From: a virus
DNA: 36,550 bases
Strand: one strand, 5' to 3'
IMG/VR virus record: IMGVR_UViG_3300025073_000109
Location: 1 to 36,550 of that record
Part shown: one piece after another, positions 497 through 18,217 of the stretch
Position numbering within the stretch: the first letter of the stretch is position 1
Layout: the number at the start of each line of letters is the position of its first letter
Notes under the pieces: model-generated
Seen by the model: only the letters and a program-made list of their open reading frames with translations
Databases searched by the model: none
Told to the model about the DNA's origin: nothing
Made by a program: the position numbers and the translations under genes

Positions 497-2054
497 GCTC
501 AAGGCTAAGACTAAAGAAGCAATCTGTTATTTATATGAGGTCTGGCAAAATTCCCGGATAACCCTGTACCCGTATCTTGCTTTGCCGCAGGCTCCGCAGA
601 TACACGAATCGACCAAGCGCGTCAAGACGCTGTTTGGCGGCAACAGATCGGCCAAGACCAATACCTTTGCGCCGGAAGTTGCCATGCGTGTGCGGGGCAA
701 GCACTACTGGCAGGATGTAAGGCGGCCTCCGATACAGGTGTGGGTGCTGTCAGCCGACCTCGATACTTCAAGGACAGTGCAGAGGAAAGCGCTGCTGGAA
801 TGGCTGCCGCCGAATGAAATAGCCCGAAGCGTCTGGAATAATCAGGAAAGACTGATCGAGCATATCAACGGTTCGCAAATCCATTTCAAGAGTTACAAGC
901 AGGGTTTCGAGCAGTTTCAAGGCCGGAAGATCGACATAGTATGGTTCGACGAGGAGCCGCAGGACCCGCAGATTATCGACGAATGCGAAGTCCGGCTTCT
1001 GGACCGGCAGGGGTTGCTGCTGATCTCCTGTACGCCGCTTCAGGGCTACACGATGCTGTTCTATCGTGTGATTAAGAACGAGCAGGACGACGAAGAGGTA
1101 GTATATTGGCATTTCTGGATGGAGCATAATCTCTACATCCCGTATGCCGAAATACTCAGGTTCCAGCGGAAGTACGCGAAGGACCCCGCGAAGCTGGCAA
1201 GCCGTATGCACGGCGAGTTCGCTCTTTCCAGCGGAACGATCTACGGCAACTACTTCAATCCGCCGTTCCATGTTCTGACGGAAGAAAAGAAAAAAGAAAT
1301 AGAGTCCCGCCGAATTTCCGAGGGCTGGGAGGTATTCAGGGCGATAGACCCGTCTTTCGCTACTTATGTTTGCAACTGGTATGCGATCTCTCCCGAAGGG
1401 GATGTATATTGCTACCGGGAAAAATACTGGCACAATAAATCAATCAGTGAAATAGCCTTTGAAATCAATACCCATAGTTGGGGCGAAAAGATAAGCTTTA
1501 CCGTTTGCGGGGCGCACGGCGGCGACACGGCCTCGATTCTTGAACTGCCGCGACACGGCATACAGGTTATCAAGGCTACGGACTATTACCCGAACCTGAC
1601 TGGACCGGAGAAATCTCACGTTCTGGCGGGCATTTCGCGTGTGCAAGAATGGTTATTGGGTATCCCTATCGAACAGGAGCGCTATGTCAACATTGCGAAA
1701 TGCCCCGCCTGTTTTTATTCAGTCAGGGTAGATGTACGCAAGCCGTATTGCCCCAAGTGCAGCACGAAAATGGAAACTGAAAGGCAGAAGCCGGGGAGGA
1801 AAAAATACCTGTTCTTCTACCCGGACTGCAAACTGACTCTTGACGAAGTTCAATTATACAGATGGAACGAAAAACAGACCGAGCCGGTTGAGGAACACTG
1901 CGACGCATGGAGCGCCCACAGGTACGCCATGAGCACGTTTCCCGCGCCGCGTATCCCGGAAGAAAAACTGCCGAAATTCTCAATCGGCGCGTTTCTACAG
2001 GAATCTAAAATTAATCGCTTACGCAAGCAACGACTGTACATTGGAGGCAACTGA
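459..2054 (+). CDS. terL: Terminase large subunit with internal zinc ribbon
   Basis: DNA-packaging ATPase and nuclease, about 531 aa. Walker A is GGNRSAKT at residues 60-67, Walker B is IDIVWFDEE at 158-166, and the coupling motif SCTP is at 190-193. The C-terminal RNase H-like nuclease shows acidic residues in AIDPS (D297), GGD (D356) and CDAW (D482). Between the second and third nuclease motifs sits a CPAC...CPKC four-cysteine zinc ribbon (415-434), which is unusual. The start is uncertain: no ATG precedes Walker A. TTG at 459, inside the upstream gene, is used here and has only a weak SD; another non-ATG start slightly downstream is possible. The stop overlaps the next ATG (TGATG). Confidence 0.96.
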   Translation: MPKTTASSISHIKLKAKTKEAICYLYEVWQNSRITLYPYLALPQAPQIHESTKRVKTLFGGNRSAKTNTFAPEVAMRVRGKHYWQDVRRPPIQVWVLSADLDTSRTVQRKALLEWLPPNEIARSVWNNQERLIEHINGSQIHFKSYKQGFEQFQGRKIDIVWFDEEPQDPQIIDECEVRLLDRQGLLLISCTPLQGYTMLFYRVIKNEQDDEEVVYWHFWMEHNLYIPYAEILRFQRKYAKDPAKLASRMHGEFALSSGTIYGNYFNPPFHVLTEEKKKEIESRRISEGWEVFRAIDPSFATYVCNWYAISPEGDVYCYREKYWHNKSISEIAFEINTHSWGEKISFTVCGAHGGDTASILELPRHGIQVIKATDYYPNLTGPEKSHVLAGISRVQEWLLGIPIEQERYVNIAKCPACFYSVRVDVRKPYCPKCSTKMETERQKPGRKKYLFFYPDCKLTLDEVQLYRWNEKQTEPVEEHCDAWSAHRYAMSTFPAPRIPEEKLPKFSIGAFLQESKINRLRKQRLYIGGN

Positions 2055-2974
2055 TGAACCGCTTTAAAGCTGTACTGGCAATAACCGCTCTCTGGACAAG
2101 CGCCGCGCTGGCCCAGCAAACGCTGCAATCCACTGTTTATTTTCCTACCGGCCAGAATGTTCTGCGAGTTCATTCTACCGAGGGATATCTAGGCTGGAAA
2201 AACAGCATAGGGAATGTGGCCCTGTTTACGACTCTGAACGCCAATCGGGACTCGCTTCAGGAACAGCAATGGTCGGTGGTTGTGACTCGCCAATTAAGTC
2301 TCCCGCAGCACAGGTACGAAGTGATTGTTACTGGTATTCCATTCGACCCTCTGCAAACGATAATTTATAAAGACACGATTGATCTTGGCGCAACCGGGGC
2401 ACAATTTGCCGTTCCTGATAGAAACACAAGACAGACGGTAGGTAATAGTCCATTCCCCTTCAGTCAGGACTCAATCTTTAGTATTTGGGTTAGAGAGGAT
2501 ACTCTTTACAACGGAGATAAAACCGAAATCCTATTTACCAGATTTGTTCCTGTAGCCGGATCAACCACCGGAGAAATCAATTCTATTCCGGCGGATTTCT
2601 TTGATACGCTGACAGTAGCAGACGACGACACCATGAGTGGCACGAATGATACAACCTATACGCGGGCTTTCCCTGTTGTTCGCAACGCCAACGTAGGTGT
2701 CTTTATCGACATGGTTCCAATCACCGGCACAGGTGACACCCTGGCCTTAGCTCTACAGTTTAAGCGCAACGGCTCGAATAGCTGGTACGGCGGTCCCGGC
2801 GGCAAGGTCAGGGTCTTGCAGTCCGTGGTAGCGTTTAATGATTCAACCTATGCTTTGACTATACCGGCTGATTCGCTCATGGTGGCCGATTCTGTCCGGG
2901 TAGCGCAAATATCCCTGGTTGATAAAGGCCGTAATATTATCAAGCGGTTCTTTGTAAAATACTTCTCGAAGTAA
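2054..2974 (+). CDS. Exported beta-rich protein with Sec signal peptide
   Basis: This is a 306-aa protein I do not recognise. Residues 1-20 are a clear signal peptide (basic start, hydrophobic core, ALA cleavage site before QQ). The rest is beta-rich, with many Asp-Thr and Asp-Ser pairs and no cysteines in the mature part. The ATG overlaps the terL stop and has a GGAGG SD seven bases upstream. It is followed by the spike-like gene, which also has a signal peptide. It may be a virion appendage or a protein placed in the host envelope. The family is unknown. Confidence 0.85.
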   Translation: MNRFKAVLAITALWTSAALAQQTLQSTVYFPTGQNVLRVHSTEGYLGWKNSIGNVALFTTLNANRDSLQEQQWSVVVTRQLSLPQHRYEVIVTGIPFDPLQTIIYKDTIDLGATGAQFAVPDRNTRQTVGNSPFPFSQDSIFSIWVREDTLYNGDKTEILFTRFVPVAGSTTGEINSIPADFFDTLTVADDDTMSGTNDTTYTRAFPVVRNANVGVFIDMVPITGTGDTLALALQFKRNGSNSWYGGPGGKVRVLQSVVAFNDSTYALTIPADSLMVADSVRVAQISLVDKGRNIIKRFFVKYFSK

Positions 2975-2992
2975 CCGGGAAAAGGGCCGACA

Positions 2993-5095
2993 ATGCGAAA
3001 ATGGTTTTTTGTCTTTCTGATATTGTTTTGCTACGGCAGTGTCTTTGCGACTACCATTGCCAGAGTTAAGACATGGGGGACGCGGGAAACACTCAGCGCG
3101 AATGACCTGAATGCGGAGTTTGATAACGTTATCAACTTCCTCAACGGGTCAATTACGTTAGTCAATATTGACTCGACTATTCGCTACCGCATGGACACCC
3201 TGGATGTCAACTATGGCTTGCGGTTCGGGACTGGTACGCCTGCCGCGACATCAGGCAATGTTTTTTGGGGCAATGGCAGTCTGTTTATTTCCGTCAGCCG
3301 GGATTCAGCCGGGATAGTTACTAAAACGGGTACGCAGTCTATCGCCGGGAAAAAGACTTTTACCGATTCGACCCTGCTGACCGGGCCTATGATGGTATCC
3401 GGCGAAGGCACGATTACGAACCATGTCTGGTTCTATATACTCCCAAAAGCCGCCGATTCGCTACTCGTTCCCTCGGTCAGAAACCAGTTTGTCACTAAGT
3501 TTTGGATTGACAGCCTGCGAACACAATTCGAGGGCGAAATGTACGACAGTGCTGCGGCTGTCGTTACCGTCAACAACGGCATAATCCGGCCTGAGTTTGC
3601 CGACAGCGCAAGGCGATTCGTTAAAGATACTTTACTATTATTCTTCCCGATTGTCCAGAATACCATTGAGGATTCGCTTAACAACAATATCAGGAATGCC
3701 GCGTTACTGACTTTCACTGGTGACAGGGTTCGTGTACAGGATACTCTCGAAGTACAGAAGATACTGGATGCGGATACGCTTTACAGTTCCACGACTATCA
3801 ATTTCTTCAAAGATAATGTGACCATTGCGGATACACTGACAGTCAATAAGATAGCCGACATTGACACGCTGTTATCCAGCCTGAACAAGATTTACGTCAA
3901 AACGGCCTTGCAGGTAAAAGATTCCATTCTGGTTGGAACGGCCAATATATTGGATGTTATTTCAGACAGTATCGCCGCACATCCGGCTGGTGCGGATGTT
4001 ATTGACTCGGTTGGCTATTCATTTGTGATTGGCCGGTCCGGGGCGGTAAACTACCTATTGTCTGGCGCGGATTCAGCCAACCTCAAGATCGCCCTCGACA
4101 CGGCTTTTGTGAAACTGGCGGCAAACGGCGGGACGATATTTATCAAGGGCGGGGTGTATGCAAAGGCCGGAACGGACACCCTGCGGTCGAGTACCAAACG
4201 CATTGTGATTAAAGGTGAGCCGGGGCGGACGATTATCTATTGCACCGGGGCGGACTATGAGTTTTTCGACACCCTGAATGTTGGAAAGCTCTGGATAGAG
4301 GACGGCATTGAGTGGGATGGAACCGGGGCCTCACTCGGCCTCATTCGTACCGGGACTACCGCCCTGACTTCTGGGGACAGCGTTTTGGTGAAGGACAACA
4401 TTTTCAGGAACTTCTCCAGCACATCCGCCACCATGTTCGCCACGGATGACTCGACAAACGCCTGGCGGATCGAGCACAACATTTTCCGCAACTGTTATAT
4501 GACTAAATTTTCCGGGTTGGAGTCCAAGATTAGTGATAACGAGAATACCGCCGCCGGACGATATGGATTTTCGGTAAACCTTGGGTACAACCAGGTGACC
4601 GGAAATACGATTGTCGATTTTGATTCGTGCGGAGTGTACCTCGAAAAATTCGAGACTCCCGATCAATACAGGCAGCCCTCTGTGGTGTCTGGAAACTATA
4701 TCTACCGGACAGCCAAGAAACTGACCGCTTTTGGAATTATAATACAAGGGAGCGCCAACCACGTGGCCCCGGCGGTTATTGCAAACAATATTATCGGCGG
4801 GCACGACACCAACTACAATACGGACAGCCTGGGAACTGGCATATATATAAACGAATCTCTGAGTGATGTTCATGGCAATACTATCAAACTGGTAGTTACC
4901 GGAGTTACGTTAACCAGCCGCGGTGATAATGTTTCTGTTGCGAACAACATATTCAGAACCTGTACTACCGGGATATCTATTTTAACTGGCGCTACGAAAA
5001 GCGGGCACTCCGAAAATTGGTTTCAGGGTGTTGACACAAACGTCTCTGACGCTGGGACTACTACCGTTAACGGCGATACGCGAGATTTGGACTAG
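2993..5095 (+). CDS. Tail spike/fibre-like protein with right-handed beta-helix and signal peptide
   Basis: This is a 700-aa protein. Residues 1-19 look like a Sec signal peptide ending VFA. The next part contains a segment typical of tail fibre N-termini (W-GTRETLSANDLNAEF), then a long Asp-Ser/Thr-rich beta region. From about residue 360 to 690 there are repeated beta-helix rungs with recurring N-x-I/G-N-x-I patterns (for example SGNYIYRT and VIANNIIGG), like pectate-lyase-fold tail spikes that bind or cut surface glycans. No catalytic residues can be assigned by eye. An N-terminal signal peptide is odd for a tail protein assembled in the cytoplasm. Confidence 0.82.
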   Translation: MRKWFFVFLILFCYGSVFATTIARVKTWGTRETLSANDLNAEFDNVINFLNGSITLVNIDSTIRYRMDTLDVNYGLRFGTGTPAATSGNVFWGNGSLFISVSRDSAGIVTKTGTQSIAGKKTFTDSTLLTGPMMVSGEGTITNHVWFYILPKAADSLLVPSVRNQFVTKFWIDSLRTQFEGEMYDSAAAVVTVNNGIIRPEFADSARRFVKDTLLLFFPIVQNTIEDSLNNNIRNAALLTFTGDRVRVQDTLEVQKILDADTLYSSTTINFFKDNVTIADTLTVNKIADIDTLLSSLNKIYVKTALQVKDSILVGTANILDVISDSIAAHPAGADVIDSVGYSFVIGRSGAVNYLLSGADSANLKIALDTAFVKLAANGGTIFIKGGVYAKAGTDTLRSSTKRIVIKGEPGRTIIYCTGADYEFFDTLNVGKLWIEDGIEWDGTGASLGLIRTGTTALTSGDSVLVKDNIFRNFSSTSATMFATDDSTNAWRIEHNIFRNCYMTKFSGLESKISDNENTAAGRYGFSVNLGYNQVTGNTIVDFDSCGVYLEKFETPDQYRQPSVVSGNYIYRTAKKLTAFGIIIQGSANHVAPAVIANNIIGGHDTNYNTDSLGTGIYINESLSDVHGNTIKLVVTGVTLTSRGDNVSVANNIFRTCTTGISILTGATKSGHSENWFQGVDTNVSDAGTTTVNGDTRDLD

Positions 5096-5106
5096 GAGAA
5101 AACTTT

Positions 5107-5475
5107 ATGCGACATATTGTCATGCTTTTACTCTTGTCCGTAACTGGACTTTACGGTGCCCAGCGCATGGGTGATACGTTATGGGTCAAGCGGCAGAGAC
5201 CCGATGACCGCACAGCGCAATTAGTGATACTGCCGGGATGGAGTATGGTTTCAAGTAATCCGAGTGATCCAACCTGTCGCAAGGTCAATGTTACCTGTCA
5301 AGTTCTTGTTCGGGACAGTCTTGGTGATGTGGTTGCGATAGAAAAGCGGATACGGATTTTTGGTATGGACACCAGCAAATGCGAGATCAAATTTACAACG
5401 CAAGACACTATCCCATCGGACTTCAAAGAAGGCAAGTTCAAATTGGATGTTGAAGGCAAGTTCAAGAAGAAGTAA
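5107..5475 (+). CDS. Small exported protein with signal peptide
   Basis: This is a 122-aa unrecognised protein. Residues 1-18 are hydrophobic and end in YGA, consistent with a signal peptide. The mature part is beta-like, holds three cysteines (a possible disulfide plus one), and ends in a lysine-rich tail. The ATG follows AGGAG at good spacing, 11 bp after the spike gene. It is the third consecutive gene with a signal peptide, so the three may work together at the host envelope or on the particle. Function unknown. Confidence 0.8.
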   Translation: MRHIVMLLLLSVTGLYGAQRMGDTLWVKRQRPDDRTAQLVILPGWSMVSSNPSDPTCRKVNVTCQVLVRDSLGDVVAIEKRIRIFGMDTSKCEIKFTTQDTIPSDFKEGKFKLDVEGKFKKK

Positions 5476-6236: not shown

Positions 6237-8348
6237 TTGGCGAGAAACTATGGACCGGATGAGGCGCGTTACGCGGCATTTATTTCTGAAGGCGAAGCCA
6301 ACCGCGAGAAAAATGCGGATGATTATAAGCGATGGCTCGGTTATCTGAAGAATAAATGTTCGCTTGCGGATTTTGAGAATCAGGACTTCCGGGCGTTTAT
6401 CAATCTGGCCTACATGAATTGGGCCAATCTCCGCCCGGCGATCTACTTCAAAAATCCGCAATTCAAGGCCGCACCTCGTCCGGGGTCTGGACAGGGCAGG
6501 TTAATGAGTGACGCTAACTTCGCGGCGGTTTTGATGGAGAATATTCTTACTTATTACCTGCACGAAAAGCGGACTAAGCGGGAATTTAAACTCTGTACTA
6601 TTGAAGCCCTTGTCTTAGGCATATCCGTATTCAAGCAGGGATATCATATCCCGACAAAGGACATTAAGAAAAAGAAACAGAATCTCAAGAAGCTGATGGG
6701 CTTATCCGATGCGATGGCATTCGACAGCGAAGAAGTCCAGACTGCTATTGCTAATCTTGAGGAAGCCGACAGGCAGGCGTTGGCTCTTGACGATATACCG
6801 GATAAGGAAACATGGTGGGGCAAGTGGACCTCGATCAGAAACCTATTGGTTCCGAGCGGCTACGGCACTTGGTTGTCGGAACAACCCTGGCTTATCGAGC
6901 GCATTGAGAAGCGTCTACCGGACGCGCACGATTCTTACCCGCGCATCAAGGACAGGAATATCGAGCCGACACTATCTTCCACCGGGGAGGACGGCAAGGC
7001 TGACACCTATCTGATCTACGAAATATGGGATTGGAACGAAAAGAAACTGGTACACTTAGTACCGGACAAAGAAAAGAAAACGATTGTAAAAGAGAACAGC
7101 TGGCCGCGTGGGCTGGAAAAGTATCCTTATGAGGAACTGAGATTGGGCACTGACGTACCCGGTGAGTTCTACCCGCAGCCGGACGCCAAGTATTACGAAA
7201 GGGTGATGAATGTTGTCAGCGAGACAATGTCCACCTCGGTCGAATATCTGAGGCGTTACAAGGCACAGTATTGGGATGAGGTGGGGCTGGACGAAGAAAC
7301 TAAGGCGATGATCGAAAATCCGGTGGATGGCTCGGTCATCACCGCCCGTAAGAAAATGCCTCAGTTAATGGATGTACCGAAGCAGACCCCGGACGCACAG
7401 AACGCGCTTAACAGGCTATTGACGTTCTCCGATCAGTTAGCTGGCGTAACGCGCACACGCAGGGGCACAGGAGCCAAGCTGACGGCTACTCAGGTGGAGG
7501 CCGAGGAAGCAGGACTCGATCTCAGGGAAGAGGAAAAGCGGGACAACTTAGAGGACTTCTTCACCAGTGTGGGCCGTACTCAGGCGCAACTCATTCAGAA
7601 GAACATGTCGAATGAGTTGATTGTAACGCTGTCGCCAAGAGAGGCCAAGGGCTTTAACCTTGCGAATCCGTGGCATAGTGTAAAACCTGAAGAGATTGAC
7701 GCCGAGCTTCTGATATGGGTAGTGCCTAATTCGTCCATAAAGGCGGATGTCCAGAATGACTCGCTGAATCTTGAAAAGTGGTTCAATCTTAGTTTCCCGA
7801 ATGCGGATATGATTGGGCTTGATAAGCGGGTATTGTGGCAGAAGTTTTCGGAGAAGAGCCTCAGAATATCCAGAGAGGAAATCGAAGAGGTTATGTTGCC
7901 GGAGCAAAGCCCGGACGCAATGGGGCTGGCTAAGTACGAGAATCAGATGTTCGTGCAGGGTATGGCGGTCAATCCGCCCGACCCGCAGGAACGCCACATG
8001 ATACATCTACAGGCACATCAGGGCCTATTGGATACACTGAATCCTGAGAAGATGCAGCAGACTTTAATCGGGCTGCAAGGCCAAGCGCAGCAGTATATAG
8101 GCCGCGCTGTCGTGCCGGGTGATATTGATAAAGGCATAGCGGAATTGAGACAGCGGATGCAACAGGCTCCGGCGATAGCCAACGCCTTGCAACAGCATAT
8201 AGCCGCGCACCAGAATTTTCAGAAGGGGGGAGCCGCAGGAGCGCCCGCCGGTCCGTTAAACTATAACTTAGCCGCTCAGAAACCTTCGGGAGGGACTACG
8301 ATCACAGGAGGTTCGACGAGGGCCGAACAACAGGGAGGTATGCAATAA
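6237..8348 (+). CDS. Portal protein
   Basis: A 703-aa protein, close to the size of P22-type portals (about 725 aa). It would form the dodecameric DNA channel at the capsid vertex. It has an N-terminal helical region, a central wing/clip-like part with many tryptophans, a stem-like helical region around residues 380-430 (T-G-A-K-L-T-A-T-Q-V-E-A motif, typical of portals), and a Gln/Ala-rich helical barrel-like C-terminus ending in Gly/Ala-rich sequence. The start is TTG; no in-frame ATG occurs until deep in the conserved N-terminus. It precedes scaffold and coat, as expected. Confidence 0.92.
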   Translation: MARNYGPDEARYAAFISEGEANREKNADDYKRWLGYLKNKCSLADFENQDFRAFINLAYMNWANLRPAIYFKNPQFKAAPRPGSGQGRLMSDANFAAVLMENILTYYLHEKRTKREFKLCTIEALVLGISVFKQGYHIPTKDIKKKKQNLKKLMGLSDAMAFDSEEVQTAIANLEEADRQALALDDIPDKETWWGKWTSIRNLLVPSGYGTWLSEQPWLIERIEKRLPDAHDSYPRIKDRNIEPTLSSTGEDGKADTYLIYEIWDWNEKKLVHLVPDKEKKTIVKENSWPRGLEKYPYEELRLGTDVPGEFYPQPDAKYYERVMNVVSETMSTSVEYLRRYKAQYWDEVGLDEETKAMIENPVDGSVITARKKMPQLMDVPKQTPDAQNALNRLLTFSDQLAGVTRTRRGTGAKLTATQVEAEEAGLDLREEEKRDNLEDFFTSVGRTQAQLIQKNMSNELIVTLSPREAKGFNLANPWHSVKPEEIDAELLIWVVPNSSIKADVQNDSLNLEKWFNLSFPNADMIGLDKRVLWQKFSEKSLRISREEIEEVMLPEQSPDAMGLAKYENQMFVQGMAVNPPDPQERHMIHLQAHQGLLDTLNPEKMQQTLIGLQGQAQQYIGRAVVPGDIDKGIAELRQRMQQAPAIANALQQHIAAHQNFQKGGAAGAPAGPLNYNLAAQKPSGGTTITGGSTRAEQQGGMQ

Positions 8349-8704
8349 TGACCTATGACTTTGAGTGTTCGGCATGTGGTAATATTGAAGAGCATTATGT
8401 TGCGACATTTGATTCCCGCGAGGATGAAATCTGCGGACAATGCGGAACGAAGATGCAAAGATTGGTTGCGAATAGTGCGCGAATAGAAATCTGGAAGCAT
8501 ACTCATATACCGGAGGTGGATAAAAATATTCATTTCCGTTCCATGAAACACGCCCGCGAAGTGGCGAGAGCAAAGGGGTTAAGAATCAATCAAGATTATC
8601 TAATGCCGTATGACTTGGAGTACAGGAAAAAAAACGAGGAACGCTTAATGCGTCAACCAGTCCAATTTGACATGGCAAAATCGCAAAGGAGGGCGACAGG
8701 ATAA
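8348..8704 (+). CDS. FmdB-like zinc-ribbon protein
   Basis: This 118-aa protein starts in a TAATG overlap with the portal stop. Its N-terminus matches the FmdB-type ribbon: MTYDFECSACG, then CGQCGTKM about 25 residues later, followed by a basic helical region. Such ribbons are common in phage genomes next to portal genes. The biochemical role is unknown; it may stabilise a structural complex or bind nucleic acid. Confidence 0.82.
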   Translation: MTYDFECSACGNIEEHYVATFDSREDEICGQCGTKMQRLVANSARIEIWKHTHIPEVDKNIHFRSMKHAREVARAKGLRINQDYLMPYDLEYRKKNEERLMRQPVQFDMAKSQRRATG

Positions 8705-8776
8705 ACAAGACAGATTATTACTTAGGTTTCTTTTCTTTCTGACAACAATAACGAATGACCTCATGAATCATTCGAC

Positions 8777-8811
8777 AGGCCGGTTGGAGCCAACCCTCCC
8801 CGGCCTTTTTT
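8777..8811 (+). terminator. Intrinsic terminator between portal block and scaffold
   Basis: Seven-bp stem AGGCCGG (8777-8783) with CCGGCCT (8800-8806), an inner TTGG/CCAA pairing and a run of six T at 8806-8811. A smaller hairpin, GAATGA/TCATTC, lies just upstream (8753-8758 with 8768-8773). Together they mark the 3' end of the portal transcript or a partial terminator that sets the ratio of portal to coat. The rest of 8705-8865 holds no convincing gene. Confidence 0.78.
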
Positions 8812-8824
8812 GTTGTCAATCATC

Positions 8825-8847
8825 TGAGGTCACAATTTGTGGCCTCA
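8825..8847 (+). promoter_or_regulatory. Near-perfect palindrome in the scaffold gene leader
   Basis: Eleven-base arms (8825-8835 and 8837-8847) are complementary apart from one T/G position, which still pairs as U-G in RNA. The palindrome ends 6 bp before the GGAG SD of the scaffold gene. It could be an operator for a DNA-binding dimer, or an RNA hairpin that protects the mRNA or controls scaffold translation. No good promoter hexamers are visible: a TTGTCA at 8813 has no matching -10. Confidence 0.5.
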
Positions 8848-8865
8848 ACAATGGAGTGTAGTAAA

Positions 8866-9681
8866 ATGGCAGACGAAACCGTGATGGACCCGGCACAGGA
8901 TCGCACCGTCGACAGCCAAGCCGGACAGACTGCGGCGGACTCGCAGGTTGCAACGGCCACAGCGCCGTCAGCAGTACCGATTGCAGATTATAAAAACCTC
9001 CAGTCTTTTGCGACCAAGACCTCTCAAGAATTGAAGGCTTTCAAGGAGGAGGCGGCCAAGAGGGATCAGGAGAATACCGCGAAACTTGCCAGGGCAGAGG
9101 AACTTGAGGAAAAGTTCAATCGTCTTGGAGAAGCTTTCGGTGCAACACCGCCCGCTGCGGCTAAACTCAGCCCGGAGCAGATCAAGGAATTGGACAACAT
9201 ACTCCAACAGACCCCGACCTACAGAACCCTGGCGGAGCAAAGCAAAACACAGCAGCAGGCACAGCAGACAGCGTCAGCAAGACAGCACGATATGGCGGTC
9301 AATGAAGCGGCGATTGAACTCACTAATCAGTTCAAGTTGACTGATGAACAGGGCGCGAACCTCAAGAAGTTTATTATGGAGGACCCCGCTATTGTGGGTG
9401 GGATACAAACCGCCGTGACTAAGGAGCAGGCTCTCAGAACCTTCAGGAATGCTTATAAAGCTTGGCATTATGACGAACTGAGCAAAAATGCAGTTGCGCT
9501 CGGAACTCAGCAAGTAGAGCAGAAACTCAAAGGCATGGAAGCCACTGCTTCGGTCGATCAGGGAGCGCCGATAGCTGCTGCCTCTGGCAATGCTGAAATC
9601 GCTTATGTTAAAGGCCAAGGTCTTGACGGAGTTTGGGACAGGATCGCGGCCAATGTACGACAAACTCACGGAATTAATTAA
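8866..9681 (+). CDS. Capsid scaffolding protein
   Basis: A 271-aa acidic, alanine/glutamine/glutamate-rich protein with a long predicted coiled coil (about residues 45-90) and a second helical region (about 100-215), directly before the coat gene; this is the classic profile and position of a scaffold. The ATG at 8866 has GGAG nine bases upstream. A GTG at 8839 in the same frame lies inside the palindrome and is not favoured. No protease domain is seen, so it is probably released rather than carrying its own protease. Confidence 0.82.
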   Translation: MADETVMDPAQDRTVDSQAGQTAADSQVATATAPSAVPIADYKNLQSFATKTSQELKAFKEEAAKRDQENTAKLARAEELEEKFNRLGEAFGATPPAAAKLSPEQIKELDNILQQTPTYRTLAEQSKTQQQAQQTASARQHDMAVNEAAIELTNQFKLTDEQGANLKKFIMEDPAIVGGIQTAVTKEQALRTFRNAYKAWHYDELSKNAVALGTQQVEQKLKGMEATASVDQGAPIAAASGNAEIAYVKGQGLDGVWDRIAANVRQTHGIN

Positions 9682-10743: not shown

Positions 10744-11496
10744 ATGGCTGGACAGGCTATTCTTAGTGCCAATGATGTCGCTCCCGTTACCGCTCTTGGC
10801 AGTACATACACAAGTTTCGATCTGGCAGGGCTGCTTGGTCCCCGGTCGTATGTGTATGTCCGCAATCAGGATTCGACTGCGTGGACGGCGGGACTGGCAG
10901 TACGCCAGCGCAGCGATCTGTTCGCTACTGAAGGCACGGCTCTAACCGCCGATTCAAACTCGACTGTTGGCCTGATTACCGACGCCTCCGGGCCGGGCGC
11001 TCCGTGGACAACCGCAGGCTATGTGCCGGACTCGATTGACCGTGTGCTGTACTGGCACGCCAGTGCAACACCGTCAAGTGTTTATTATGGTAAGGTTTAC
11101 TATAATAACACGGATATTGATTTCAACCTTGAGGACCTTCCGGCGGCTGCGATTTCCAACAGCGGGGCATATATCATCTGGCGTCCGTATGTCTTTGTTA
11201 AGACGGCGGCCAATGACACGCTTTCGGTTGGCGGTGTTTCTCAGTCCACAATCTCTACTCTGTATCATGGCTGGGTGCAGTATGCGGGCTTTGGGTACGC
11301 ATATCTGATCGGCGATACTACGGGCAACGGCGACGGGCTAGGCAGTATTCCGGGTGCGACGGCTGGTTATGCCAAAGGCGTGACCGCCGGGACCAACGAT
11401 GGATACGTCTATCTCTACGCGATGACCGATAACACTGCGGCTTCTCTCTATGCGCCGTGCATGATTGCGGCTCCGTACATGAAAACCATCGGCTAA
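10744..11496 (+). CDS. Decoration/head-fibre-like protein, paralog 1
   Basis: A 250-aa beta-rich protein beginning MAGQAILSAND, with AGGAG upstream. It is clearly homologous to the next gene: both share LGSTYT, GP-R-YVY-RN-DS, GLAVRQRSD, LYWHAS, YYGK, AAI-NSGAYI-W-PY, DTLSVGG and GWVQY-GFGYAY in the same order. Its place right after the coat gene suggests a capsid-decorating or stabilising protein, but the family is not recognised. Confidence 0.82.
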   Translation: MAGQAILSANDVAPVTALGSTYTSFDLAGLLGPRSYVYVRNQDSTAWTAGLAVRQRSDLFATEGTALTADSNSTVGLITDASGPGAPWTTAGYVPDSIDRVLYWHASATPSSVYYGKVYYNNTDIDFNLEDLPAAAISNSGAYIIWRPYVFVKTAANDTLSVGGVSQSTISTLYHGWVQYAGFGYAYLIGDTTGNGDGLGSIPGATAGYAKGVTAGTNDGYVYLYAMTDNTAASLYAPCMIAAPYMKTIG

Positions 11497-11508: not shown

Positions 11509-12276
11509 ATGGCTGGACAGACAGTATTAAGCGCCAATGATTCCTCTCCTGTAACGGCGTTGGGTAGTACATATACGGACTTCGACTTCGAGACCCTATT
11601 AGGTCCGAGGGCTTATGTGTATATCCGCAACCATGATTCGAGCAACATGACGGGTGGACTCGCTGTAAGGCAGAGATCGGACATTCTCACCACCGAAGGG
11701 AGCGCCTTAACGGGTGATGCGAATACTGCTATTCCCCGTATTCTGGATGCCGATTTACCAGCACCGTTTACAACCGCAAGTTATATCCCGGATACACTCG
11801 ACCGGGCTTTGTACTGGCATGCCAGTGCCTCACCGACGAGCACATATTACGGGAAGATTTACATGAACACAACTACCGAGTTGTGGCTTGAGGACCCGCC
11901 CGCTGCGGCTATTACTAACAGTGGAGCTTATATTCCCTGGCTGCCGTATGCTTTTATCATAACGGGAGTCAGCGATACATTGTCCGTTGGCGGTATAGCG
12001 CAGAGCACTATCACGGCTGGTAACTACGGTTGGGTGCAGTATGGTGGATTCGGTTATGCCTATGTACTCGGCGGGGACAATGATGCCTCTGTCGCTGATG
12101 GGGTAGGTATTATCCCCGGTTCGGTTGCCGGTATGGGACAGGGCCGTACCGCTGGTACAGACGATGGCTATATCTACGGCTATCCAATGACGGATGAGAC
12201 TGCTTCGGAAGTTGGCATATATGTTCCGCTGATGATTGCGGCTCCGTATATGAGCCACTATCCGAATTACCCTTAA
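11509..12276 (+). CDS. Decoration/head-fibre-like protein, paralog 2
   Basis: A 255-aa tandem paralog of the preceding gene, with the same ordered motifs across the full length and roughly half or more of residues identical by eye. It differs in a longer C-terminal loop (GGDNDASVADGVG region) and the end MSHYPNYP. It starts 12 bp downstream of paralog 1 with AGGAGG as SD. The two may occupy different sites on the capsid or be swapped between particles. This looks like duplication followed by divergence. Confidence 0.82.
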   Translation: MAGQTVLSANDSSPVTALGSTYTDFDFETLLGPRAYVYIRNHDSSNMTGGLAVRQRSDILTTEGSALTGDANTAIPRILDADLPAPFTTASYIPDTLDRALYWHASASPTSTYYGKIYMNTTTELWLEDPPAAAITNSGAYIPWLPYAFIITGVSDTLSVGGIAQSTITAGNYGWVQYGGFGYAYVLGGDNDASVADGVGIIPGSVAGMGQGRTAGTDDGYIYGYPMTDETASEVGIYVPLMIAAPYMSHYPNYP

Positions 12277-12312: not shown

Positions 12313-13530
12313 ATGCCAAACTGGAATTTCAGAGAGCTTTACTACGGCGTGTGTGAGGATGTCCGGGATACGTCTTTGACTACCCTTGCGAAGCGCTGGG
12401 CGAATGAAGTGATTGACGATGTGATGACCCGCGAGTCTTGGAGCTTCTCCAAGCGGGAGGGCCATTTACTGACTACCGCCAATACGATGTTCTACTCGTT
12501 ACCGTCGCATTGGGATAACATATCGGACTTCCGGCAGAAAGATGCGCTGCGGAATATGGAACGAATGTCCGGGGCGCAGTTCCATGCGAGAATCGTCAAG
12601 CCGACGGCCACAGGTGAGCCTTATTGGGCGATCTATAACGGCATTGTCGGCTACTATCAGACCCCGGAGAGTTTGATCGGCCTCACCAGTACCAGTGCTT
12701 CGGATACGGGGTCGGTGACAGTTACCGGTATGTCGGGCGGCTGGGAGCAGAGCGAATCGGTAACGCTGACCGGGCTGACGATTGCCTATACAACCAAGAG
12801 ATATTCGCGTGTAATATCGGTTGTCGCCGGGTCTGCGGTGACAGGGACTATATCGGTTACAGATGATGCGTCAAGGGCACTGGCCTCTATTGCGGCGGCA
12901 GGGACTACAGCAACAATCAGTTCACAACCCGCCAGCTTGATCTCGTGCTCCAGTAGTTCAACGACAGATGATTTTACAACCGACACCGGGCAGTATTTGA
13001 GAATCCGGGGTTACAGCGGTGACGATGTGTTTCTGGAAGAAACTGTTGAGCTTGACGGAACGACAGCGGCGCTCTCTACCAATTACTACAATCGCATCGA
13101 AGAGATAGGCAAGTACGAAACATCTACCGGAACGATCACCTGTACGTCGAATGGCGGGAATAAGACTGTTGTCAAGATAGCGCCGAACCAACTCAAGGCG
13201 GAACATATCGAGGTCGGTTTTTACTCCGTTCCAAACGCGGCGTATGATATAGAAGTTCGCTACAGTGCACAGCCCAAGAAGATGATCGAGGACCACGACA
13301 GCTTCCACCCGATACCGACTAAGTATTTCAATGTCCTGAAAGACGGTGTGTTTGTAAAGGCGTGGAATTATCTCAAGTATCCCAACAAGGCCGCTGAAGC
13401 GAAGCAGTCTTACGAGTTTGGGCTTAAAACAATGTGGCAGGATGATTGCCGCCGGGTATCGACGAACACCAGAGTAAGGGCGTCAGACGAAGGGCGCGTT
13501 CTGTTTAACATTCCAAGGAACGCGGATTAA
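12313..13530 (+). CDS. Head-tail adaptor-like protein with inserted beta domain
   Basis: A 405-aa protein. The N-terminal part (1-120) and C-terminal part (about 290-400) resemble short-tailed phage adaptor/head-completion proteins: helical start, RWANEVIDDVMTRESWSF, then YSLPSHWD, and a C-terminal helical part with FVKAWNYLKYPNKAAEA. Between them (about 120-290) lies Thr/Ser/Gly-rich beta sequence like one or two Ig-like domains (VTVTGMSGGWEQSESVTL). The start ATG has no SD at normal distance. Its order after the coat block matches P22 gp4-type adaptors, although it is much longer because of the insertion. Confidence 0.65.
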   Translation: MPNWNFRELYYGVCEDVRDTSLTTLAKRWANEVIDDVMTRESWSFSKREGHLLTTANTMFYSLPSHWDNISDFRQKDALRNMERMSGAQFHARIVKPTATGEPYWAIYNGIVGYYQTPESLIGLTSTSASDTGSVTVTGMSGGWEQSESVTLTGLTIAYTTKRYSRVISVVAGSAVTGTISVTDDASRALASIAAAGTTATISSQPASLISCSSSSTTDDFTTDTGQYLRIRGYSGDDVFLEETVELDGTTAALSTNYYNRIEEIGKYETSTGTITCTSNGGNKTVVKIAPNQLKAEHIEVGFYSVPNAAYDIEVRYSAQPKKMIEDHDSFHPIPTKYFNVLKDGVFVKAWNYLKYPNKAAEAKQSYEFGLKTMWQDDCRRVSTNTRVRASDEGRVLFNIPRNAD

Positions 13531-15083
13531 TGCAGTCTCAGACTTATACAGATTTTTCGGGTGGCTTGAACAATAGGGCTAATCCTGCGGCTATCGCGGA
13601 GAATCAAAGCCCGCTTTGCTCGAATGTCGATCTCGATGAATATGGCAAGATACAAAAGCGCAGAGGAAGCAAGTATCTGTTTGGTACAGCCAAGTCTTCT
13701 CCGATAACTTGGCTCCAAGAGTTCCGACTGGCGAGCGGCACAACTAAGTTGCTTTATACCTCTGGTACGACTTTAAACGCCTGTGATATTGACGGAACAA
13801 ATGATACAGCTATAACCGGAGCGTTGACTTTAACCAGCGGCAAGAATGTCCTGTCCGATGCAACTTACTGTACGCTGTCGGGTGCACCTATAATTGTAGG
13901 TACAAATGATACAGATAATATATGGTATTGGACAGGCACGGGCAATGCGGCAGTATTATCTACACAGACTTATATGCCAACTGCGGCCAAATGCGTAGAA
14001 TTGTTACAGGATAGATTGATACTTGCTAATATAGTTGATCGAGGAAGCGGCGCAAGATATACGAATTACTTTACATGGTCGGCGGCTAACGACCCGACGG
14101 ATTGGGACACGGACGCCCACATTTTGATAGGTAGCGCCGAGGACCCGATAATAGCCGTGATTAAAGCCCAGAAGGCGATTGTAGTCCTGAAGGAACATTC
14201 AACGTGGCGCGTATATTGGGATTTAACTTTAGCAACTTTCGTGCCACAAATCATCAATCCCAAGGTTGGCTGTGCGGCGCGGAACTCGGTAGCCGCGTCG
14301 GTGAATGAAGTGTTCTTTCTATCGCAGGATGGAGTTTATCAGTATGACGGGCGCGGGACGGATGAAGAATCCCTAGTAAAGATTTCGGATAATCTTGAGG
14401 CTGAAGCGTGGGAAACCAACTGGCATACGGCGCGAAAAGACAAGGCTAATGCCGTTTTCTACCGGCCCCGGAACCAGTACCGGATATTCATAGCAGAGGG
14501 CGAAACGGCGGAAACAGCCGATGAAAACAGGACGTACTATGCCTATCATCCCAAGTTTCAGGCGTGGACTAAGGGAACGCACGAGGCAAATTGCAGTACG
14601 GTAGTGCAGGATGGTTCGAGATACAGACTCTATGTCGGCGATTATGACGGCCAGATTAACAGACTGGATTACTTCGATACGGACGATGGCGCCTATGTAG
14701 ATAACGATAATGGCTCGGCTATTTCGTCGCATTGGTACACCAAAGATCACAACATGGGGTATCCAAACCTCGATAAAGGCTGGGCGCAATTAACGGTAGT
14801 AATGTCCACGACCTCTACGGCGCAGACATTGGCCGTTACGCAGTTCAATGACTATGGCGATTACAGTACGGCGGACTCGCTTTCCATGCAGGCTCCCGGA
14901 GCCGTACTGGATGATTTTGTGCTTGACGTTGACAGGCTTGGAGGCGGCACGACTAAGAAAGCCTCTATGCCCCTGATGGGCTATTCCGATGTTACAAGGT
15001 TAAAGTTTGAGAACAATAACCTGAATGAACACTTTTCGATCTTAGGTTATTCGCTCAAATATGACCCGGCTGAATCATACTAA
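13530..15083 (+). CDS. Tail nozzle/stopper-like beta-propeller protein
   Basis: A 517-aa protein whose ATG overlaps the previous stop (TAATG). It begins with the pattern seen in many short-tail phage proteins of this position: DFSGGLNNRANPAAI, then N-VDLDEYGKIQKRRG. Repeated beta-blade-like segments follow (for example DRLILANI, IIAVIKAQKAIVVLKE, FFLSQDGVYQYDGRG), suggesting a propeller. In P22 order this is the gp10-like position, so a nozzle or gate under the adaptor is the best guess. Fold and role are inferred. Confidence 0.7.
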   Translation: MQSQTYTDFSGGLNNRANPAAIAENQSPLCSNVDLDEYGKIQKRRGSKYLFGTAKSSPITWLQEFRLASGTTKLLYTSGTTLNACDIDGTNDTAITGALTLTSGKNVLSDATYCTLSGAPIIVGTNDTDNIWYWTGTGNAAVLSTQTYMPTAAKCVELLQDRLILANIVDRGSGARYTNYFTWSAANDPTDWDTDAHILIGSAEDPIIAVIKAQKAIVVLKEHSTWRVYWDLTLATFVPQIINPKVGCAARNSVAASVNEVFFLSQDGVYQYDGRGTDEESLVKISDNLEAEAWETNWHTARKDKANAVFYRPRNQYRIFIAEGETAETADENRTYYAYHPKFQAWTKGTHEANCSTVVQDGSRYRLYVGDYDGQINRLDYFDTDDGAYVDNDNGSAISSHWYTKDHNMGYPNLDKGWAQLTVVMSTTSTAQTLAVTQFNDYGDYSTADSLSMQAPGAVLDDFVLDVDRLGGGTTKKASMPLMGYSDVTRLKFENNNLNEHFSILGYSLKYDPAESY

Positions 15084-15097
15084 TCCAAGAGGGCGAT

Positions 15098-15625
15098 ATG
15101 CTTCTCCAAGAATGGCGCTCCGATCCGCACGAGGCGTGGTTCAATCTTGTTTACATGATGTACGAAAGCAGTGAACAGTTCTTATGGCAAAAGACAATAA
15201 TAACGGATCAGTTACTTGGGAAGTTTCCGGCGGCGGATGTACTGTCAAGATGGGCAAGCGGCGCGAATCTAAAGTTTGGAATAATCAGCAATCGGTTTCT
15301 CGGTGTGGGAACGCTGTGCAGCTTAGACAGCGCCAATCATTCGGCGCAGATGAAAGTATTAATCGACCCGCGTATCGTTCCTAAGCCGTGGGAGATACAA
15401 GCTACAATCTGTAAAATGATTGATTATGCTTTTGAATCCGGCCTTGAAAGAGTGTATGGTTATCTGCCGTTGACCGGCAGTAAGGTTATGCGCTATTGGG
15501 AAAAGGTACTGAAAGAACTCGAAGCAAAAGAGATTATCAGGCGCGTGGGGATTGAGAAACATGCAATCCGAACATCCAAAAGACGAATTGGGAGAATTTT
15601 ATTTGAAGCTGTACGATCTAAATAA
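15098..15625 (+). CDS. GNAT-like virion-associated protein
   Basis: A 175-aa protein with GAGGG before its ATG. The middle and C-terminal parts follow a GNAT pattern: a beta hairpin with FGIISNRFLGVGTL, then VLIDPRIVPKPWEIQATICKMIDYAFESG as the acceptor-helix region, then RVYGYLP...SKVMRYWEKVL. The usual Q/R-x-x-G-x-G/A acetyl-CoA loop is poorly kept. GNAT-like proteins of this size precede internal virion proteins in several podoviruses (T7 gp13 belongs to a GNAT-clan family), so a structural role is more likely than acetylation. Confidence 0.68.
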   Translation: MLLQEWRSDPHEAWFNLVYMMYESSEQFLWQKTIITDQLLGKFPAADVLSRWASGANLKFGIISNRFLGVGTLCSLDSANHSAQMKVLIDPRIVPKPWEIQATICKMIDYAFESGLERVYGYLPLTGSKVMRYWEKVLKELEAKEIIRRVGIEKHAIRTSKRRIGRILFEAVRSK

Positions 15626-15637
15626 GGAAGTGCACTA

Positions 15638-18217
15638 ATGGCGAATTTGCTTGATATTTGGCCCGGCTATCAGAAACTCATCAACGAACCCGATTCGTGG
15701 ACTAAATATACACCAGCGGAACGGAAGTTGAAATATTGGGCCGGGTATCAACTGGCAATGCAGAAATACCCACAGTTCAAGGCTATGTCACAGGAACAGT
15801 TTCTCAATGATCCTTACACAGCCTTTCAAAATGTTGATCGGTATATCCAGAAACCGACGGCCAATGGAATACCCGATCCCAATGTTGAGCCGCTGACTAC
15901 AAAGGCAGCGAACTATGCCGCACCTGTTGTTAAGACGGAGCAACCCGTAACTCAGATAGTGGGAGCGACCCCGCAACAGCCTATATCGGCGGCTGATGCT
16001 TTGGCTGGAACTGGTACTACTTCCCCTGATATGGCGGCTGGTCAGCCGAGGGGAACAGGAAATATTAAGGGCTATGATGCTAATGGCAATCCGATTTACG
16101 AGTATAATGCTGACGGTACGGCCAATAACGCCACGGTTGTCTACCATAGCACGGATGAATTTGAACAGGCCAAGAAAGAACAAAACGATCAAGTTACCAG
16201 AGCTACCGTCACTAATGCACAGATGGGCGGAGATGTAAGCGGATCGGGTGCAACGCAATCTTTGAACGATGCTTCATGGTATTATGGTACTGGAGCGGAT
16301 TTTGCCAAGTACGGCAACTTCCCGTATGCTGCTGAAGATGAAGGCGGACGGACCTGGAAGCCCGGCGTTAATCTCGGACAGGAAGCGCAGAATCGCTACC
16401 TGGCGGGTGACCAATTCTTCCAGTGGTTGCCGAATGCGTTTCAGGCGGCAACTCAGGCTGTTCCGCAATCTGTTCCTACGCCTACATGGTCGAGCTTTTC
16501 ACAGGGCTTAACCGGCCCCGGTATGTGGGCCGCTGGTTATCCGCAGAATATTAATGTCGGCGGCAACGCTTTCCAGACGGGTCAGGCCCAGCAGGGCCAG
16601 CAGGCGCAGGGTGCTCAGTTCTCACCCTATAACACGACTGCGCCTTATGGATTCAGTCAGCAGCAGTACAACAAACAGCAGTTCCAGACTCCGTGGTATT
16701 CGGGACTATCTCAGACACCGTCTCAGGCCGGGACTCAGACCACAGGTGGCCCCTCTATAGCGGGAACGACTACAACCGATCAGGGTGGCCCTTCTCTTGC
16801 GGCTGTTAAACAGAAAGCCGACCCTAATGCGCCTCCGATTACAACGTGGCCTTTGAGTAACCGCTCTCAGATGAACACTCCGCAAGGGGTGAATAATCAG
16901 GCGGCGGGTCAGCCACAGTCTTACGCTTCTGCGTTCTCCAATGTCGGCAATCAGGCGCTTGGCAGTAACCAGTACGGCCAGTCAACGGTCAATCAACTGA
17001 GAGGACTTGCAAATCCGAATTACTATCAAGCTCCGACTAATACTTACGGTTCTCAGAATCTCAGGAATACTACGCAAGCTTATGCTCAGAATCCGGCTAT
17101 GGGTGCTGGCGGCAGGGCGCAAGCCACCGAAGGCGCGGTATCTAACACGGTTGCCGGGCAGTTAAATCAGAATCTTCGTAATGACCCGTTGTATGGACAG
17201 GCCCGGACGCAGTTATCTTCTCAACTTGGTGCAGGTTCGCCGGTCAATGCCATAACACAGCAGATTCAAAACTCATTGGGTCCGGTTGATGTCTATAACA
17301 AGCAGCTTCAGGATACACTGTATGCCGACCAGACCAGACGGCTCGACGAGGACTATACAAAACAGTTGCAAGATACGCAGGACTATTACAATTTTTACGG
17401 TCTTTCCGGTTCGAGCGCCGAAAAGAAGCAGATGGATTTACTGAAACAGAACGTGGACCGTCAGAAGCAGGACATAAGCAATACTCTGAACGCTCAGATG
17501 ATTCAGAAAGCCCAGACACTTGAAGGACAGAGGTTAGGCAATCTTACCGGAGCATTGACCGGCGTAAGCGGTACGCAACAGCAGGCTATCAACAGCGCGA
17601 TGGGGTTAATGGATTTGCCTGCCGCACAGCAGAGGGCGGCTGCCGGACTTGGGCTTGGACTACTCGGCCAGCAGCAGAGCGGCGCACAGAACGAATACGG
17701 TAATCTCATGGCGGCGCTGGCTGAAGCTCAAGGCGCTCAAGGACAGGCCGCTAATATTTCTCTCGGAGCGGCAGGCCAGAACTTTGCCAATACCGGACAG
17801 CAGGCTAATATTCTAGGTAGTCTGGCAAACCTCGGTATGCAGGGTTACGGTGCTGGCTCGGATACTTCACAGTGGCTTACGAATTACTTCGATCAGCTTG
17901 CTCAGACTCAGCGGGCTAATGCGGCGCAAGACTACACAATGGCGACTCAAGAATCCGCGACTCAGCAGCAGCAGCAGCAGCAGAACTACCAGAACTTGCT
18001 GCAACTCTTGGGCGTCGGGACCGGCCTGTACGATACTACCGGAACTCAGGGCTGGAACCAGATGAGGCTGACGGCTACCGATTTGGCGAACATGAGCCAG
18101 AATTGGAACCAACAGGCGGCGCAGAACTTGGCATCGAACAACTGGTGGCAACCGCTGTTAGGCGGACTGGCCTCAACCGCTTCAGCGGCGGCTGGCGCAC
18201 CGCGTTATTACAGTTAG
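15638..18217 (+). CDS. Large Gln/Ala/Gly-rich internal virion (ejection) protein candidate
   Basis: An 859-aa protein. The N-terminal 80 residues are helical and tryptophan/tyrosine-rich. The rest is low-complexity, rich in Gln, Ala, Asn, Gly, Thr and Pro, with segments such as QAQQGQQAQGAQF and a run of seven Gln near residue 780. A long helical part lies at about 545-700. It is followed by two more large proteins in the place where short-tailed phages encode ejection proteins. It may form a disordered or extended trans-envelope conduit. No enzymatic domain is visible. Confidence 0.68.
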   Translation: MANLLDIWPGYQKLINEPDSWTKYTPAERKLKYWAGYQLAMQKYPQFKAMSQEQFLNDPYTAFQNVDRYIQKPTANGIPDPNVEPLTTKAANYAAPVVKTEQPVTQIVGATPQQPISAADALAGTGTTSPDMAAGQPRGTGNIKGYDANGNPIYEYNADGTANNATVVYHSTDEFEQAKKEQNDQVTRATVTNAQMGGDVSGSGATQSLNDASWYYGTGADFAKYGNFPYAAEDEGGRTWKPGVNLGQEAQNRYLAGDQFFQWLPNAFQAATQAVPQSVPTPTWSSFSQGLTGPGMWAAGYPQNINVGGNAFQTGQAQQGQQAQGAQFSPYNTTAPYGFSQQQYNKQQFQTPWYSGLSQTPSQAGTQTTGGPSIAGTTTTDQGGPSLAAVKQKADPNAPPITTWPLSNRSQMNTPQGVNNQAAGQPQSYASAFSNVGNQALGSNQYGQSTVNQLRGLANPNYYQAPTNTYGSQNLRNTTQAYAQNPAMGAGGRAQATEGAVSNTVAGQLNQNLRNDPLYGQARTQLSSQLGAGSPVNAITQQIQNSLGPVDVYNKQLQDTLYADQTRRLDEDYTKQLQDTQDYYNFYGLSGSSAEKKQMDLLKQNVDRQKQDISNTLNAQMIQKAQTLEGQRLGNLTGALTGVSGTQQQAINSAMGLMDLPAAQQRAAAGLGLGLLGQQQSGAQNEYGNLMAALAEAQGAQGQAANISLGAAGQNFANTGQQANILGSLANLGMQGYGAGSDTSQWLTNYFDQLAQTQRANAAQDYTMATQESATQQQQQQQNYQNLLQLLGVGTGLYDTTGTQGWNQMRLTATDLANMSQNWNQQAAQNLASNNWWQPLLGGLASTASAAAGAPRYYS
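17963..17983 (+). repeat. CAG trinucleotide run (7 units)
   Basis: Seven consecutive CAG codons encode seven glutamines within the ejection-protein candidate. The run stays in frame with any change of whole units, so it could vary in length by slippage without inactivating the gene. Confidence 0.9.

Follow-up and report, generated by a model that had tools for sequence, protein, structure and literature searches.

The locus described here raises the question why a run of adjacent phage genes, placed between the terminase gene and the putative portal gene, should code for proteins with signal peptides, although, by the usual teaching, tailed phages assemble in the cytoplasm. The window, meaning the whole stretch of DNA analyzed, is the IMG/VR virus record IMGVR_UViG_3300025073_000109 (36,550 bases, positions 1-36,550), and the genes in question are gp1, gp2, and gp3, all of which sit between terL and the putative portal gene (Table 1). 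The first-pass annotation had ascribed signal peptides to these three neighbors, and this was confirmed, including the coordinates and the Sec-type anatomy. By a leader score that is our own heuristic (charged start, hydrophobic core, A-x-A-like site) and not SignalP, gp1, gp2, and gp3 are the sole qualifiers among the 54 called ORFs of the window (3/3 versus 0/51, p = 4e-5 in a post hoc test); in control contigs, 2.4% of the ORFs were leader-positive by the same heuristic. The predicted leaders are MNRFKAVLAITALWTSAALA in gp1, with cleavage before QQ, MRKWFFVFLILFCYGSVFA in gp2, with cleavage before TT, and MRHIVMLLLLSVTGLYG in gp3, with cleavage before AQ. The mature proteins would thus begin with QQTLQSTVYFPTGQNVLR in gp1 and TTIARVK in gp2. 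By the heuristic score the Sec features are clear in gp1, whereas gp3 has the weakest cleavage site of the three. Each leader ATG is preceded by a Shine-Dalgarno-like sequence, of which AAAAGGG in front of gp2 is the weakest. Within gp2, no ATG or GTG occurs between the leader and the fiber domain, and one TTG lies inside the leader.

Table 1. Positions of the features discussed in the text, in window coordinates.
Feature	Position	Remarks
terL	459-2054	Terminase_6N match, 5.6e-11
Shine-Dalgarno-like site GGAGG	2043..2047 (+)	5' of the gp1 leader ATG
gp1	2054..2974 (+)	306 aa; predicted Sec leader, residues 1-20 (nt 2054-2113)
gp2	2993..5095 (+)	700-aa tail-spike-like protein
gp2 predicted leader	2993..3049 (+)	
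gp2 fiber N-terminal domain	3050..3151 (+)	TTIARVKTW...DLNAEFDNVINFLN; common to many leaderless phage fibers
gp2 BppL_N-like motif	3314..3364 (+)	TGTQSIAGKKTF type, residues 108-124; E 2.6e-4, below Pfam cut-off
gp2 beta-helix-like stretch	4193..5062 (+)	Residues 401-690; PbH1-like motifs
Shine-Dalgarno-like site AGGAG	5094..5098 (+)	5' of the gp3 leader ATG
gp3	5107..5475 (+)	122 aa; predicted Sec leader, about residues 1-17
Putative portal gene	6237-8348	Named from position and size only
FmdB-like zinc-ribbon protein gene	8348-8704	Between portal and scaffold genes
Paralogous 250-aa genes	10744-11496, 11509-12276	Adjoining, after the major capsid gene; without leaders
Tail nozzle/P22 gp10-like (Hc3) protein	13530..15083 (+)	Without leader; used for the tree

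Behind its leader, gp2 consists of a fiber N-terminal (virion-docking) domain, a BppL_N-like motif, and a beta-helix-like part, in this order. Residues 20-53 (TTIARVKTWGTRETLSANDLNAEFDNVINFLN) are a phage fiber N-terminal domain with the pattern R-V/I-K-T-W...DLNAEFDN, which is shared with other phage loci at tblastn E-values down to 1e-10 and identifies gp2 as a fiber-type protein. The stretch from residue 401 to 690 contains 10 PbH1-like [VIL]xxNx[IVFYL] motifs compared with 1.4 in shuffled sequences (P < 2e-4), and residues 607-691 match the NosD family at an E-value of 3e-4, far below the cut-off of that family. Pfam yielded no beta-helix family for gp2 and a PDB sequence search no match, the periodicity seen by autocorrelation is weak, and single-sequence AlphaFold models of the gp2 C-terminus (pLDDT 29) and of gp1 (pLDDT 31) were uninformative and discarded. 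Of the earlier description of gp2 as a 700-aa tail-spike-like beta-helix protein, the tail-spike type hence stands on the docking domain, and the beta-helix fold is likely from its motifs. The mature part of gp1 is beta-prone and free of Cys, and that of gp3 contains three Cys. Relatives above noise were found neither for gp1 (viral contigs, phage records, PHROGs, Pfam, NCBIfam) nor for gp3 (viral contigs, PHROGs, Pfam, NCBIfam), and homology of either to a virion protein did not emerge in these searches. With adjacency and leaders as the sole links, both probably belong to one unit with gp2. Close relatives of gp1, gp2, gp3, and the MCP were absent from IMG/VR, as were those of gp1, gp2, and the portal protein from phage records; TerL retrieved distant phages only, and the records L043, L044, and L045 have no annotated fiber between terL and portal. 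Further downstream in the window, the two paralogous genes that share MAGQ.ILSAND..PVTALGSTYT probably code for decoration or fiber-like proteins.

A pattern search of viral contigs yielded 40 loci with DLNAEFDN, and an alignment search yielded 55 viral and four bacterial-genome loci, which overlap in part with the contigs from the pattern search. At most IMG/VR loci the fiber domain starts at the first Met, as in MGATFSRVKTW or MANFGRVKTW. A leader precedes the domain in ten genomes, namely the window, L005, L011/L072, L014/L052, L033, L036/L063, L042, L060, L062, and L073 (L005, L011, L014, L033, and L036 stem from the pattern search; L042, L060, L062, and L073 were added via the alignment search). 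A positive n-region, a hydrophobic h-region, and an A-x-A-like site are found in gp2 and its nine relatives. In 10 of 10 leader-bearing proteins, cleavage at the putative site would leave the Arg of RxKxW preceded by 4 or 5 residues, and 32 of 33 distinct leaderless forms have 3-6 residues between Met and Arg. Removal of the leader would therefore recreate the leaderless N-terminus, as exemplified by ...SLFA/GATFSRIKTW in L062 versus a leaderless M/GATFSRIKTW. Among the leader-bearing proteins, identity is 33% in the leader and 74% in the domain; domain identity is also 74% among ten leaderless examples and 73% across the groups, all of these domain values being raised alike because the loci were selected by this domain. 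The leader-bearing protein of L060 is a tail fiber with a C-terminal Phage Tail Collar domain (PF07484, 1.1e-20; phrog_523, 6e-30), and owing to this domain and its tail-fiber family matches, the occurrence of a leader on a genuine tail-fiber protein is established at the sequence level. L042 has a leader-bearing and a leaderless fiber copy in tandem. In the relatives the fiber gene comes after the nozzle gene, and not between terL and portal as in the window. Taken together, it is well supported that the leaders are translated, that their anatomy is of the Sec type, and that they have been added as modules to a phage fiber domain. The first-pass annotation had held that homologs without hydrophobic N-termini would speak against export. 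Most gp2-domain relatives are literally of this kind, and they do not refute export because the pattern is that of an add-on module and not of absence. Two side observations concern the start of the fiber gene. In L055, L057, and L058, the fiber-domain gene (EDKFTSTISRVKEW...; at about 9042 of L055) has a good AGGAGG and no ATG, GTG, or TTG before the domain, so that ACG or ATA might serve as start. In L072, a homing-endonuclease-like gene (8333-8989) directly precedes the leader-bearing fiber.

In a tree of the nozzle protein from 54 phages, the presence or absence of the leader needs six changes, at least four of them on well-supported branches. The leader is present in a clade made up of L052, L033, L072, L005, and L073, beside which the window forms a long branch (support 88), and in a second clade leaders are scattered among leaderless sisters. 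As read from this tree, leaders have been gained or lost repeatedly. The fiber domain is rare in bacterial genomes, and a sample of nearly 800 from two phyla added a single new one; the leaderless relatives there occur in Deltaproteobacteria/Desulfobacteraceae and in one Gammaproteobacteria MAG.

Leaders in these phages are not confined to the fiber. Leader-like genes account for 24 of 191 called genes in the leader-fiber contigs versus 11 of 454 in other contigs, and with the fiber excluded the figures are about 16/181 versus 11/454 (p = 7e-4, a value that is too optimistic because five of the phages, the 'LN' group, are close relatives). All five have a leader on the gene that follows the MCP gene, the latter being putative and named by position. 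L052 encodes a second leader-bearing fiber-like protein (LDSRYLKLSGSNANQNIS); another of its leader-bearing products is small and has a domain that is also found within leaderless L055 proteins. No leaders were found on the listed core and ejection-type genes of these contigs. The additional leader-bearing genes are appendage-like. At 15577-18025, the contig of L036 (L101) carries further genes with leaders (118 and 393 aa), accompanied by a lipoprotein-like gene, and at 2251-4356 it encodes several clustered ankyrin-repeat proteins. In L099 (974-3848) and L098 (15555-18104), large leader-bearing proteins occur (748 aa with an InlB B-repeat match, and 487 aa), and the fiber domain is leaderless. 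A need for disulfides as the general reason for export was rejected, as the mature parts outside L098/L099 mostly contain 0-2 Cys.

The first-pass annotation had suggested an export-based system; this is supported in part and is the best reading. In ten genomes the leader forms a module that stands ahead of a virion fiber domain; gp1 and gp3 offer no homologs for such a comparison. According to the model favored here, the gp2 tail spike, probably with gp1 and gp3 as partners, would be made as a Sec-exported pre-protein. The host Sec system would translocate all three proteins, signal peptidase I would remove the leader by a cut directly ahead of the virion-docking domain, and folding would take place in the periplasm or outside. 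Once a holin opens the inner membrane at lysis, the spikes would dock on the otherwise finished virion, and the particle would be completed outside the cytoplasm. We assign this whole sequence of events a probability of about 0.5. Its parts differ in strength: export and cleavage of gp2-type fibers are strongly suggested by the leader anatomy, whereas we infer docking on the virion and its timing at lysis, the docking because the domain is conserved and no other fiber candidate was seen in the window. In cell extracts, particles can acquire P22 tailspikes or T4 tail fibers after the fact, and late docking is thus feasible. Against the model, most relatives of the domain manage without export, so that the fold does not need it; the double copy in L042 would also fit a division of labor between a virion fiber and an exported fiber; and nothing links gp1 and gp3 to virions. 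A broader version is more tentative and falls short of even odds. In it, the core particle of some tailed dsDNA phages would be assembled in the cytoplasm, all appendages (spikes, second fibers, the product of the capsid-adjacent gene) would pass through Sec, and the virion would be finished in the periplasm or lysate. If the favored model is true, these phages would have a second assembly compartment, their spikes would fold under oxidizing conditions, and free spikes would be present in the envelope before lysis.

Alternatively, the exported fiber or spike may have its site of action not on the virion but at the envelope of the host or in the surrounding medium, where it would mask or destroy receptors or degrade surface polysaccharide, the docking domain being kept by descent. 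Its action on receptors would serve superinfection exclusion or prevent re-adsorption to debris. Export would deliver the protein exactly there, the tandem copies in L042 fit a decoy plus a virion fiber, gp2, like many polysaccharide-cleaving spikes, has a beta-helix-like part, and export of envelope proteins encoded in the tail region is known from tailed phages, an example being lambda Lom (PMC12309495). However, the docking domain is equally conserved with and without a leader, cleavage restores the leaderless N-terminus, a second fiber was seen neither in the window nor in two pieces of the 35-kb contig of L036, and leaders also occur on other appendage-like genes, including neighbors of the putative MCP. 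As the main rival, an envelope function is less likely than the favored model, yet it retains real weight on account of L042 and of the known export of envelope proteins by phages. It is improbable that the leader stays uncleaved and either holds the fibers at the inner membrane as an anchor up to lysis or turns the membrane into the assembly site. A hydrophobic leader by itself cannot separate an anchor from a cleaved signal, and the cleavage site of gp3 is weak, but all ten leaders in front of the fiber domain have a signal-peptidase-type site at a matching distance from it, and the leaderless versions begin right at that position. That the leaders are annotation artefacts, with translation starting downstream, or random hydrophobic N-termini is largely refuted and very improbable, for although the start codons are only predicted and taken from single metagenomic contigs, Shine-Dalgarno-like sequences precede the leader ATGs, gp2 has no ATG or GTG between its leader and the fiber domain to start from, and the same layout recurs in ten genomes against a low control rate (2.4%). 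Of the three options raised at first, namely secreted enzymes, spikes attached outside the cytoplasm, and uncleaved anchors, the second is favored on account of the equal conservation, the restored N-terminus, and the lack of any further fiber candidate seen in the window.

Among known systems, the fibers and spikes of tailed phages (Collar-domain fibers, P22-type spikes) share with gp2 a docking-type N-terminal domain and probably a beta-rich C-terminal part. Those known so far have no signal peptide, and both their synthesis and their attachment take place in the cytoplasm, whereas gp2 has a Sec leader. Filamentous phages provide virion proteins with signal peptides, pIII and pVIII, which join the virion outside the cytoplasm as proposed for gp2. 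These phages, however, are membrane-extruded, contain ssDNA, and have unrelated proteins, whereas the phage described here is a dsDNA phage of the terminase/portal/capsid type. T5 exports the envelope protein Llp. Like gp2, Llp and lambda Lom are phage-encoded, have a signal peptide, and lie near tail or fiber genes; unlike gp2, they belong to the host envelope and lack a domain for docking on the virion. Lom in particular is an exported envelope protein encoded in the tail region (PMC12309495). Signal-peptide (SP/SAR) endolysins also use the host Sec system (PMC8951688) as gp2 would, but are lysis enzymes and not fibers. For the proteins of one study, the absence of signal peptides was read as a sign that they come from phages (PMC6199706). 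If the model holds, a signal peptide on a phage gene would be no argument against a virion protein. A literature search, with most subscription journals outside its scope, retrieved no report of signal peptides on tail fibers. Both parts, the fiber domain and the Sec leader, are known, and it is their combination that appears to be new.
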